Shown here: piece by piece, positions 8,152 to 11,167 of the stretch
How positions within the stretch are numbered: position 1 is the stretch's first letter
Layout: each line of letters opens with the position of its first letter
Source of the DNA: an uncultured Anaeroplasma sp.
GTDB lineage: Bacteria; Bacillota_I; Bacilli_A; Acholeplasmatales; Anaeroplasmataceae
DNA length: 33,164 nucleotides
Assembly: GCA_947592005.1 (NCBI GenBank)
Contig: CANQDJ010000012.1
Coordinates: 1 to 33,164, forward strand
Direction: 5' to 3'
The notes under the pieces: generated by a model
Seen by the model: the letters and a program-made list of their open reading frames with translations, nothing else
Told to the model about the DNA's origin: nothing
The model's database searches: none
Program-made: the position numbers and the translations under genes

Positions 8152-8373
8152 ATGTCAGCAATCGCAATTAATATTCAAGGATTAATTTATACTATTTTGT
8201 TTTGTATTTTTTTCTTATTAAGTTATTTTATCATTTTAGGAACAAGATTCGAACAATTATTCAAACAAGGAAGCACTTGGCAAATTCGTGCCGGACAATT
8301 TTTAGTTTCTATACTTTTGGCTTATTTTTTGGCTACGGCAGTAATGTCTTTGATAAATTCTATGCAATTTTAA
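8152..8373 (+). CDS. ywzB: DUF1146 (YwzB-like) small membrane protein
   Basis: A 73-residue protein with two hydrophobic segments (about 9-30 and 48-68) separated by a basic RFEQLFKQGSTWQIR loop, as in the DUF1146/YwzB family. In Bacillus ywzB also follows atpC and precedes the spoIID/spoIIQ region. The function is unknown. AAGGAGG (8141-8147) sits 4 bases before the ATG. It may be expressed by read-through of the hairpin after atpC. Confidence 0.8.
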   Translation: MSAIAINIQGLIYTILFCIFFLLSYFIILGTRFEQLFKQGSTWQIRAGQFLVSILLAYFLATAVMSLINSMQF

Positions 8374-8381
8374 AATTTTAT

Positions 8382-8410
8382 GTATATTCACCTAAATTTT
8401 GTCAATACTA
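8382..8410 (+). promoter_or_regulatory. Candidate sigma-F-type promoter for spoIIQ
   Basis: GTATA (8382-8386), 14 bases, then GTCAATACTA (8401-8410). Against the sigma-F consensus as I recall it (GYWTA and GGNRANAHTR) the -35 matches fully and the -10 at 9 of 10. SpoIIQ is a classical forespore sigma-F gene. The -10 ends 6 bases before AGGTGA, so the mRNA would start at the ribosome-binding site. The spacing is slightly short for sigma-F. Confidence 0.5.
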
Positions 8411-8427
8411 AAATTGAGGTGAAAGAC

Positions 8428-9108
8428 ATGAAAGAAAAAACAAAAAGATTTTTCATTGAAAAAAAGGAATTGTTAATATTTATCGGTGTAGTTGTATTTG
8501 TATTTGCGGCTGTAATCGGTATTGCAACTTTGGCTTTAAACTCAAGAAAGAAAGGAGAAACAGATATACCTGTTGATCCGACTCCAGATGTAAATGACCC
8601 ATCTACAAACGGAGGTTCCACTCCACAACCTAATTTACCTGTTGTTGAAAAATTTACTTTGCCTTTAACAGGAGATTACAAATTGGTTAGAACATTCTTT
8701 GATGAAACTTTATCAGATGAAGAATTAGAAAGTGCGGTTATTGTTACAGGAAGCGAATTTATCACTTCAACTGGGACAAGTTATGCAAAGGCTAATAACG
8801 CAACATTTGATGTTTTGGCAATTTACAGCGGAACAGTTCTTTCTGTAACAGAGGACGAGCTTGCCGGAACGACAGTTGAAATTAAACATTCTAATAATGT
8901 TGTAAGTGTTTATTCTTCCTTATCTGACGTTAAAGTAAAAGCAGGAGATACTGTAAAACAAGGTGCTGTTATCGCAAAGGCATCTACCTCTATCAATGAT
9001 ACTGAAGCAGGTGTGCATGTACATTTAGAAGTAAAAGTAAACGGTAAATATTTGAATCCTACTACAATCTTTGGAAAAGAAATCGAAGAAGTCGCAGAAG
9101 TAAAATAA
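8428..9108 (+). CDS. spoIIQ: SpoIIQ-like LytM/M23 domain sporulation protein, probably inactive
   Basis: A 226-residue bitopic protein: basic cytoplasmic N-terminus, membrane helix (about 14-37), a low-complexity Pro/Asp/Thr linker (about 43-70), then a LytM domain (about 75-215). In B. subtilis SpoIIQ in the forespore membrane binds SpoIIIAH across the intermembrane space. The second zinc motif HVH is present (His197, His199), but the first (H-x-G-x-D) reads Ser114-Thr-Gly-Thr-Ser118, so two zinc ligands are lost and a scaffold role is likely. I start at ATG 8428 behind GAGGTGA. The in-frame ATG at 8380 overlaps the candidate promoter. The context (ywzB before, spoIIID after) supports spoIIQ over a generic M23 peptidase. 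Confidence 0.88.
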   Translation: MKEKTKRFFIEKKELLIFIGVVVFVFAAVIGIATLALNSRKKGETDIPVDPTPDVNDPSTNGGSTPQPNLPVVEKFTLPLTGDYKLVRTFFDETLSDEELESAVIVTGSEFITSTGTSYAKANNATFDVLAIYSGTVLSVTEDELAGTTVEIKHSNNVVSVYSSLSDVKVKAGDTVKQGAVIAKASTSINDTEAGVHVHLEVKVNGKYLNPTTIFGKEIEEVAEVK

Positions 9109-9285: not shown

Positions 9286-10500
9286 ATGAAATATATTTAT
9301 AATTTTAATTTGAAAGATGTTGTAAACATTGACAACTACTATACTTTTTTGGAAATTTATCTGAAAGAAAATCATATTTTGAAAAAGGATTTTTTTGATA
9401 AAACAGGTATTTGTCCGAATTCTTATCGTTTCTTTTTAAAAAACAAAGAAAAAAACAAACATTATTATTATGGAATAATTTCCAAAAAATACAACATCAT
9501 TATTCCAACAAATGAACAATTAATCACATTATCCCAACAATATTCCAAGATCTTTGAAGATATTTTATATAAAAGAGTTGAAAAATATGAGGAAGATTTA
9601 AAAATAATAGAAGATGTCCTAGGAGATACATCTACCGAAAATAGAACGATTGCTTCTATGCATGAAATTTATTTCTATATCTTAGAAGTATTTTTGAAAA
9701 TATCATTGGGAAAATTAATTAGACAAGATAGATTAAATATTCTACAAATATTTATTGAAACATTAAAATCATATAAATCTTTAATAATAAAGGATTATTA
9801 TGTTTTATATAATATGCTTGTAATAACATATCAAGGATTAAAAAATACCATTGACGAAAATACCATAGAAAATACAATTAATTCTGCAAACGACTATTAC
9901 TTTTTTCAACCTTTAATGTATAAAATCATTTCGGATTCATATTATTTGGTAGGAAATTATATTAATTCTGTTGTTTATGGTCAAAAATCTTATGACGGAT
10001 TCATACAATGTTCGAATTTCTTTAGGGCTGTTTCTATAAAAACCAATATAGCCTATTCTTATATAATGGGAAATAGTTTTTTACAAGCCTATTATACTCT
10101 TCAAGAACTATATTATGGCTTAGAAAATTATAATATAAAACAACAAACTGCCATACTTCGAGGAATGAGTGAATCTTTTATATTTTTAAATAAATATGAA
10201 GAAGTATATGAATTACTTCAGAATCACTTAGATATAGATCGAGTAGAATTACAAATAGAATATGCCTTTGTTTTGTATAAGTTGGATAAAAAAGAAGAAT
10301 TTTTGAATTTATATCAAACATATATGAACAAATCAAATATAGAAATTTATAAAACGTATACTTGCGTTTTAGAATATATATATAGTTTATATTTAAAAAA
10401 TGAAAATATAGAAAAAAATAGCACTATATTGCGTATGACAGTCAAAGAATTAGGCAATTCAACATTTGTCAAATTTTGTAAATTTTTGTCGAAAATGTAA
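9286..10500 (+). CDS. Putative RNPP-like regulator: N-terminal HTH, helical TPR-like C-terminus
   Basis: A 404-residue, fully helical-looking, Lys/Asn/Tyr-rich cytoplasmic protein that I cannot assign to a named family with certainty. Residues 18-57 look like a degenerate XRE helix-turn-helix (LKKDFFDKTGICPNSYRFFL). From about 200 onward there are tandem 33-37 residue helical hairpins resembling TPRs, the clearest at 209-238, 244-280 and 284-316, each with the small residue/aromatic spacing of the motif. HTH plus TPR with a short exported-peptide gene downstream is the RNPP (PlcR/NprR/Rgg) layout. ATG 9286 is chosen over GTG 9277 because AAGGAGTGG lies at 9272-9280. The gene is markedly AT-richer than its neighbours (12 G/C in 9301-9360 against 23 in 6301-6360). 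A plain TPR protein without DNA binding is the alternative. Confidence 0.65.
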   Translation: MKYIYNFNLKDVVNIDNYYTFLEIYLKENHILKKDFFDKTGICPNSYRFFLKNKEKNKHYYYGIISKKYNIIIPTNEQLITLSQQYSKIFEDILYKRVEKYEEDLKIIEDVLGDTSTENRTIASMHEIYFYILEVFLKISLGKLIRQDRLNILQIFIETLKSYKSLIIKDYYVLYNMLVITYQGLKNTIDENTIENTINSANDYYFFQPLMYKIISDSYYLVGNYINSVVYGQKSYDGFIQCSNFFRAVSIKTNIAYSYIMGNSFLQAYYTLQELYYGLENYNIKQQTAILRGMSESFIFLNKYEEVYELLQNHLDIDRVELQIEYAFVLYKLDKKEEFLNLYQTYMNKSNIEIYKTYTCVLEYIYSLYLKNENIEKNSTILRMTVKELGNSTFVKFCKFLSKM

Positions 10501-10508
10501 ATCGTTTT

Positions 10509-10549
10509 AAGACTTTTTCTAAATTTAAAAGAAGAAGTCTTTTTCTTTT
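10509..10549 (+). terminator. Rho-independent terminator after the HTH/TPR gene
   Basis: AAGACTTTTTCT (10509-10520) pairs with AGAAGAAGTCTT (10530-10541), 12 pairs with one G-T, 9-base loop, followed by TTTCTTTT. It separates the regulator transcript from the peptide gene. Confidence 0.85.
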
Positions 10550-10585
10550 GAATTTTAAATTCTAACCGTAAGTTATCATTTTATA

Positions 10586-10598
10586 TTGTGAAACACAA
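10586..10598. promoter_or_regulatory. Candidate activator site TTGTG-AAA-CACAA
   Basis: A perfect 5-3-5 inverted repeat ending 10 bases before the -35 box of the peptide promoter. Its centre lies about 52 bases before the expected start, a usual activator position. The same half-sites occur in the inverted repeat upstream of the regulator (9203-9218). Confidence 0.4.
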
Positions 10599-10608
10599 AA
10601 AATCAAAT

Positions 10609-10637
10609 TTGAAAGATTCCTATAAAACTTATAAAAT
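10609..10637 (+). promoter_or_regulatory. Sigma-A-type promoter of the peptide gene
   Basis: TTGAAA (10609-10614), 17-base spacer, TAAAAT (10632-10637). Transcription would begin near 10644, just before GAGGAGG (10655-10661). It is well matched and gives the peptide its own monocistronic transcript. Confidence 0.7.
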
Positions 10638-10672
10638 CCGATTGAATTTTAAAAGAGGAGGAAATAAGTTTT

Positions 10673-10837
10673 ATGAAAAAAGTTAAAACAATCTTTGGAT
10701 TAACATTGGCATTTATGGGATTACTTTCTTTGGGACTTTATGTAACTTCTAAAGTAAATAATAGTGTAAATAACTTACACGATGAACAAAAACTTCCTGT
10801 TCCGCCACAAGATCCTGATGACTACGATTTGTTATAA
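10673..10837 (+). CDS. 54-residue putative exported signalling peptide precursor
   Basis: A short ORF with strong expression signals: its own promoter, GAGGAGG 11 bases before ATG, and a perfect terminator behind it. The product has a basic start (MKKVK), a hydrophobic segment (about 6-24), a possible signal peptidase site after VTS (24-26), then a polar tail ending in PPQDPDDYDLL (44-54). This is the design of Phr/PapR/NprX pro-peptides, whose C-terminal residues are the signal, and it lies 172 bases after an HTH/TPR gene. Alternatives are a small single-span membrane protein or a sporulation microprotein, given spoIIID next door. The coding capacity is well supported. The signalling role is inference. 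Confidence 0.7.
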   Translation: MKKVKTIFGLTLAFMGLLSLGLYVTSKVNNSVNNLHDEQKLPVPPQDPDDYDLL

Positions 10838-10846
10838 TTAAAGAAA

Positions 10847-10884
10847 AATAAGACTAATTTTTAATGGTTAGTCTTATTTTTTTT
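10847..10884 (+). terminator. Rho-independent terminator after the peptide gene
   Basis: AATAAGACTAA (10847-10857) pairs perfectly with TTAGTCTTATT (10868-10878) around a 10-base loop, followed by a T-run through 10884. Confidence 0.92.
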
Positions 10885-10915: not shown

Positions 10916-11167
10916 ATGGACTATGTGGATAATAGGGTTTTAAAAATGGCTTATTTAATGTTGGAAGGAAGACGAACGGTAAGAGAGGTTGCGAAAATGG
11001 TTGGATATTCTAAATCGACGGTCCATAATGACTTAACTACGAGATTAAAGGATATGGATTATGAGTTATATGAAGAAGTTAGAGATTTATTGGAATACAA
11101 TAAACAAATCCGCCATATTCGTGGCGGAGAGGCAACTAAATTGAAGTATCAACAGAAATTTCAATAA
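10916..11167 (+). CDS. spoIIID: SpoIIID, mother-cell sporulation transcription factor
   Basis: An 83-residue DNA-binding protein that in Bacillus and Clostridium modulates the sigma-E regulon in the mother cell. The helix-turn-helix is TVREVAKMVGYSKSTVHNDL (about 20-39), followed by the highly conserved C-terminal IRHIRGGEATKLKY. ATG 10916 is chosen over GTG 10907 because AGGTGA (10905-10910) is correctly placed only for the ATG. The 3' end overlaps the convergent yigZ by 32 bases. Its presence is strong evidence of a sporulation programme. Confidence 0.95.
   Translation: MDYVDNRVLKMAYLMLEGRRTVREVAKMVGYSKSTVHNDLTTRLKDMDYELYEEVRDLLEYNKQIRHIRGGEATKLKYQQKFQ

Follow-up and report, generated by a model that had tools for sequence, protein, structure and literature searches.

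The closest described counterparts of the locus reported here are the RRNPPA systems, in which a peptide pheromone precursor is paired with a cytoplasmic receptor. In NprR–NprX of the Bacillus cereus group the receptor combines HTH and TPR parts and the gene of a small exported propeptide lies directly downstream, which is also the layout of our pair; PlcR–PapR and AimR–AimP resemble it in the same way, being HTH–TPR regulators with adjacent exported propeptides. The Rap–Phr systems share the TPR receptor fold; some of their precursors contain the pheromone in tandem, and there are phage Rap systems with duplicated pheromones (PMC11343458); multiple mature-peptide copies also occur in systems of the PlcR–PapR/AimR–AimP type (PMC9765709). 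A survey with RRNPP_detector, resting on the same definition (a TPR receptor of 250–500 aa with a small exported propeptide), put forward 21 novel candidate RRNPP subfamilies, and its main text names neither Erysipelotrichia nor Mollicutes (PMC10075063). The survey used complete genomes only and required a TPR HMM match (PMC10075063), which the protein described below does not have, so that it would miss draft genomes with degenerate TPRs.

Here we describe a candidate receptor and precursor pair in the window, by which we mean the whole stretch of 33,164 nt that was analysed, from the 1.49 Mb genome of an uncultured gut Firmicute. What is seen is the anatomy of a quorum-sensing system, with a receptor architecture, a class-wide family, adjacent precursors and a core conserved at the protein level, and we consider it very probable that the pair works as a pheromone precursor and its cytoplasmic receptor in the manner of RRNPPA systems. 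The 54-aa precursor would be exported via its N-terminal leader, and processing would release a short acidic peptide around QDPDDYDLL, which would be re-imported, probably by an oligopeptide permease. The SBP_bac_5 class includes oligopeptide-binding proteins, and SBP_bac_5 proteins are present in the genome of the window, which is an unspecific finding. Inside the cell the HTH regulator would take up the peptide in its TPR superhelix, and its DNA binding would be altered, changing transcription of the precursor gene (autoregulation) and of other targets. Tandem copies of the core would increase the peptide dose per precursor, as with some Phr precursors (PMC11343458). The steps beyond the anatomy are modelled on the RRNPPA systems (PMC9765709, PMC11343458, PMC10075063).

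The locus between spoIIQ and spoIIID

Regulator and small ORF sit between a spoIIQ-like gene and spoIIID, with everything on the + strand (Table 1). The initial annotation had described a 404-residue regulator from 9286 onward and a 54-codon ORF, and both are found at those positions. The ORF begins 172 nt after the receptor gene, starts with MKKVK, continues into a hydrophobic stretch and has the C-terminal end LPVPPQDPDDYDLL; together with its perfect AGGAGG this bears out the earlier description of a strongly signalled reading frame with a basic start, a hydrophobic segment and an acidic tail. A perfect Shine–Dalgarno (SD) sequence combined with a strong hydrophobic leader is found in two of the eight small intergenic ORFs of the whole window, the 54-aa ORF being one; the other, 8152-8373, is a membrane-protein ORF kept at the same place in relatives. 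Precursor leaders were judged here and below by a hydropathy score (basic start plus hydrophobic segment), not by SignalP.

The control signals that the initial annotation assigned to the pair hold up in part. A promoter-like TTGAAA-17-TAAAAT site does precede the small ORF, but sites of this kind are frequent in this AT-rich window (22 found against 15.7 expected); downstream of each of the two genes there is an inverted repeat with a T run, but a strict terminator scan of the window scored neither of them (10509-10541, 10841-10884). The palindrome TCAAATTTGA at 10603..10612 may be an operator, a possibility read from the window and without backing from comparison. Separately, a perfect 11-nt inverted repeat, ATAAAACTTAT/ATAAGTTTTAT (10622-10632 and 10664-10674, 31 nt apart), stretches over the precursor gene's -10 region and its ATG; it was not seen in the congener G016.

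Table 1 Features of the candidate receptor and precursor locus and its flanking genes (positions in the window)
Feature	Position	Strand	Basis and remarks
spoIIQ-like upstream neighbour (outside the pair)	8380..9108	+	ORF; neighbour kept in relatives; name provisional, after the initial annotation
Receptor/regulator gene, 404 aa, HTH and TPR superhelix	9286..10500	+	ORF, ATG 9286, stop 10498-10500
HTH-type DNA-binding domain (predicted), residues 15-69	9328..9492	+	Model helices; HTH_3 in relatives
TPR-type superhelix, candidate peptide-binding part, residues 98-403	9577..10494	+	Model, Foldseek, TPR Pfam in relatives, NprR profile match
Terminator-like inverted repeat then T-rich stretch, 3' of receptor gene	10509..10541	+	Inverted-repeat search
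Palindrome TCAAATTTGA overlapping the promoter -35 region	10603..10612	.	Sequence and inverted-repeat search
Promoter-like TTGAAA-17-TAAAAT of precursor gene	10609..10637	+	Promoter scan; weak
Shine–Dalgarno AGGAGG of precursor gene	10656..10661	+	11 nt before ATG
Putative gene of the precursor peptide (54 aa; leader hydrophobic, tail acidic)	10673..10837	+	ORF; G016 counterpart with two core copies
Core DPDDY, residues 47-51	10811..10825	+	Shared with G016 as DPD[DN]Y; presumed part of the mature peptide
Precursor tail LPVPPQDPDDYDLL	10793-10834	+	Presumed mature-peptide region, contains DPDDY
Terminator-like inverted repeat with T run, 3' of precursor gene	10841..10884	+	17-nt arms, 94% complementary
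spoIIID downstream neighbour (outside the pair)	10919..11167	+	Pfam SpoIIID E 3e-31

Architecture and possible kinship of the putative receptor

With 404 aa the receptor falls inside the RRNPPA range of 250-500 aa, and its relatives measure about 370-435 aa. Searched alone it matches nothing in Pfam or NCBIfam, including the Pfam HTH and TPR models, and neither a three-sequence profile nor its members found anything in PDB or PHROGs. AlphaFold gave a model with pLDDT 77 from three sequences and with pLDDT 87.8 and pTM 0.86 from 23; the latter shows an N-terminal HTH-type domain, where five helices (15-28, 33-40, 44-52, 58-69, 76-94) are predicted, and an all-helical TPR superhelix. Pfam HTH_3 matches directly in 3 of 14 relatives (best E 6e-6), and TPR models of Pfam match up to nine of the 14. 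Structure prediction thus returned both domains that the initial annotation had called for: its XRE-like HTH (residues 18-57) corresponds to the model HTH of residues 15-69, and its TPR hairpins (209-316) form part of a superhelix that is larger in extent, reaching from about 98 to 403.

Foldseek placed the eukaryotic LGN, a generic TPR protein, at the top, and Rap and NprR as the best bacterial folds; the TM-scores are moderate (RapI 0.57/0.64). When the 23-sequence family profile was compared with PDB chains, NprR came first (E 3e-9 over 232 positions), followed by designed generic TPRs at 6e-9. Kinship with NprR is likely on this profile-level similarity, which extends over the TPR part only and is not cleanly separable from generic TPR resemblance. 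In contrast to NprR–NprX, the window receptor alone matches no NprR or TPR family model, and the core of its presumed pheromone is acidic and rich in Asp, Pro and Tyr. In the profile alignment NprR lacks the Asn that is most conserved in the TPR region of the family (N244), for which reason we claim no binding mode. Rap proteins have no HTH (PMC9765709) whereas the window receptor has a predicted one, and the N-terminal three-helix bundle of Rap–Phr is not found in it; for PlcR–PapR and AimR–AimP no sequence match to the window receptor was found in searches that used no dedicated profiles. In a tree the receptors of the window and its two congeners sit on a long branch, weakly placed beside receptors whose precursor also lies downstream. 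A phage collection searched with the window receptor and a plasmid collection searched with a receptor of family f24 gave no match, and hence no sign of a mobile origin there.

A class-wide family with tandem-repeat precursors

Four distant relatives within the class were retrieved with the three-protein profile, the best at E 1e-11, each adjoined by a secreted-type precursor (in G222, at a contig edge, by a precursor end) and three of them with tandem repeats. Once the profile had been enlarged stepwise (A2, A3, A4), 36 of the 395 genomes sampled in the class had a match to the receptor family at E<=1e-4; among 392 genomes of the phylum every match at E<=1e-8 fell within the same class. A secreted-type small ORF adjoins 17 of the 20 better-matched receptors with readable flanks (G000, G016, G350, G319, G222, G447, G203, G169, G271, G231, G069, G078, G072, G031, G188, G082 and G358), a count made by hand from the hydropathy score. 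Outside it stand G257, G427, G194, G353, G346 and G149, whose secreted neighbours are longer or doubtful, and G444, which lies at a contig end. The co-occurrence of both genes in relatives for which the initial annotation had asked is thus found, in several cases with tandem copies of one core in the small ORF. The three receptors without an adjacent precursor, those of G005 (L003), G325 (L023) and G073 (L068), may be eavesdroppers, or their peptide gene may be remote or lost.

The cores beside the distant receptors, which belong to other families, occur in four to nine copies and read DDPEPEFAYP, ADDPEPEIVYP, DDEPEFMY, DDPEPEFVY (five times) or DDDNDEGTLIC. The G447 precursor carries nine DDPEPEFAYP copies, one of them reading SDAEPEFAYP, and that of G222 at least four copies; there are six of ADDPEPEIVYP in G350, eight of DDEPEFMY in G319, five of GGVEDDPEPEFVYC in G203 and four of IRDD[ND]NDEGTLIC in G188. 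Several of these tandem-repeat precursors exceed 100 aa and so lie beyond the RRNPPA propeptide size of 10-100 aa. Single-copy precursors with PDDRPISY or PD[DE]RPIGY precede the receptors of G169, G271 and G231, and one further genus of the family to which the window belongs (G069, G078, G072, G031) has a secreted-type ORF of 54-69 aa after the receptor. When the core copies of one precursor are compared in pairs and the codon differences summed over seven precursors, 284 are synonymous and 19 change the amino acid; the core borders were picked by conservation, which inflates this ratio, whereas the abundance of synonymous change is independent of border choice. Fresh duplication can therefore not account for the copies, whose protein sequence has been kept constant.

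Such repeats would equally fit bulk production of effectors, with many copies of an antimicrobial or surface peptide made under the control of a HTH–TPR protein that does not bind them, and short secreted peptides beside a regulator are also typical of bacteriocin loci. We nonetheless regard this explanation as improbable. The cores are acidic and of very short length; the regulator's TPR superhelix resembles those of Rap and NprR, whose known ligands are short peptides; and the direct neighbours in families f24 and f19 are unrelated genes of housekeeping type (histidinol-phosphatase-like, LemA-like) with no immunity-like gene among them.

Longer secreted-type proteins (142-184 aa) lie downstream of family receptors at L037:2787-3278 (G257), L042:866-1294 (G427) and L046:294-848 (G194), the first with an internal EDDDDDPDVVG segment; they might be diverged precursors.

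The candidate precursor within the genus

Within the genus the receptor is present in three of 27 genomes, the window's own, G016 (46% identity) and G005 (41%), in all three between spoIIQ and spoIIID, while in G007 and G021 spoIIQ directly adjoins spoIIID. A scan of the genome contigs matched only two congeners, both already known: the MAGs 'Candidatus Avacholeplasma faecigallinarum' and 'Erysipelotrichaceae bacterium SIG215'. At the same site G016 has an 82-aa ORF, MKKLLFIFTSLSLFLMAVSF..., with two copies of EDPDNYGMFSLR. In ten genomes of the genus a DPD[DN]Y codon pattern was met only at the window locus and twice in G016, a control pattern giving no hit.

These comparisons bear on a reading that separates the two genes: the 54-aa ORF would encode a small membrane or sporulation peptide with no connection to the regulator, and the regulator would be an orphan, its ligand coming from a gene elsewhere or from neighbours. 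In its favour, G005 has the receptor at the same site without any small ORF and its genome, an assembly only 78% complete, yielded no peptide when searched with the DPD[DN]Y codon pattern; the window precursor moreover has just one copy of the core, and its likeness to the G016 precursor lies chiefly in the leader and DPD[DN]Y, with low similarity elsewhere. We find it very hard to credit all the same, given that the two ORFs share position, strand, a perfect SD, the leader and the core, which is duplicated in G016, and that a precursor adjoins the receptor in most of the family. If the pair is a pheromone precursor and its receptor, the signal is probably the DPDDY segment together with the tail, because the conserved unit of G016 is internal and repeated; the initial proposal that the C-terminal residues act as the signal thus survives in so far as the tail is probably included, though not as the last residues alone.

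Promoter dyads and a possible link to sporulation

Four precursor promoters of family f24, from four genera (L017, L018, L020, L022; 200 nt upstream, alignment A5), have in common a promoter resembling TTTACA-17-TAAGAT as well as a pair of dyads, AAANNTTCT..GAATATT near -196 and AAATATTC..GAATATTTACA over the -35 region; an equally good match to the distal dyad arose in only 0-4 of 200 shuffles. The f24 member G325, which has no precursor, lacks this promoter with its dyads, and this pattern suggests that the f24 receptor controls its own pheromone gene. A search ahead of the window genes found no operator-like dyad of the f24 type. A histidinol-phosphatase-like (PHP) gene lies 3' of the receptor at the f24 loci L017, L019, L020, L021, L022 and L023; it could be either a target or a chance neighbour.

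Of the 27 genomes of the genus only five have a Spo0A_C match, and the same five match SpoIIID; sporulation seems to have been lost in most of the genus. The receptor is found in three of the five spo0A+/spoIIID+ genomes and in none of the other 22 (hypergeometric probability about 0.003, the genomes being related); joint loss offers a simple alternative account, as the genomes are related and the receptor adjoins spoIIID. A Spo0A_C match is missing in seven f24 receptor genomes, which led us to reject a role in sporulation alone for the family as a whole. The suggestion in the initial annotation that the pair is linked to sporulation accordingly keeps its footing in location and co-occurrence within one genus, where these give weak support to the hypothesis, and loses it with the related cassettes of genomes in which Spo0A is not detectable. 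Although Rap proteins are among the closest folds and the locus lies between sporulation genes, a true pheromone pair whose receptor acts Rap-like, chiefly by engaging another protein (for instance a sporulation regulator) instead of DNA, is most unlikely in view of the predicted N-terminal HTH-type domain (HTH_3 in relatives), which Rap proteins lack (PMC9765709), and of the conserved promoter dyads in one family, which point to control at the DNA.

Place among the known systems and implications

The kind of system is known; what appears new is the family, an RRNPPA-like subfamily that we have not found described. Searches of the RRNPPA literature and of family libraries returned no mention of this group, and searches for RRNPP jointly with these taxa nothing relevant. 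We entertain a more far-reaching proposal only tentatively, rating it as doubtful: that these are an undescribed pheromone subfamily in uncultured relatives of the Erysipelotrichia and Mollicutes, with acidic Asp/Pro/Tyr pheromones often in tandem, one branch of which, between spoIIQ and spoIIID, times sporulation by cell density.

Our literature searches turned up no description of peptide quorum sensing in this group of gut Firmicutes with small genomes. Since tandem-repeat precursors reveal pheromone cores by sequence alone, synthetic peptides can be tried on the receptors with no need to culture the hosts, and in the genus of the window a density signal at a sporulation locus becomes directly testable.
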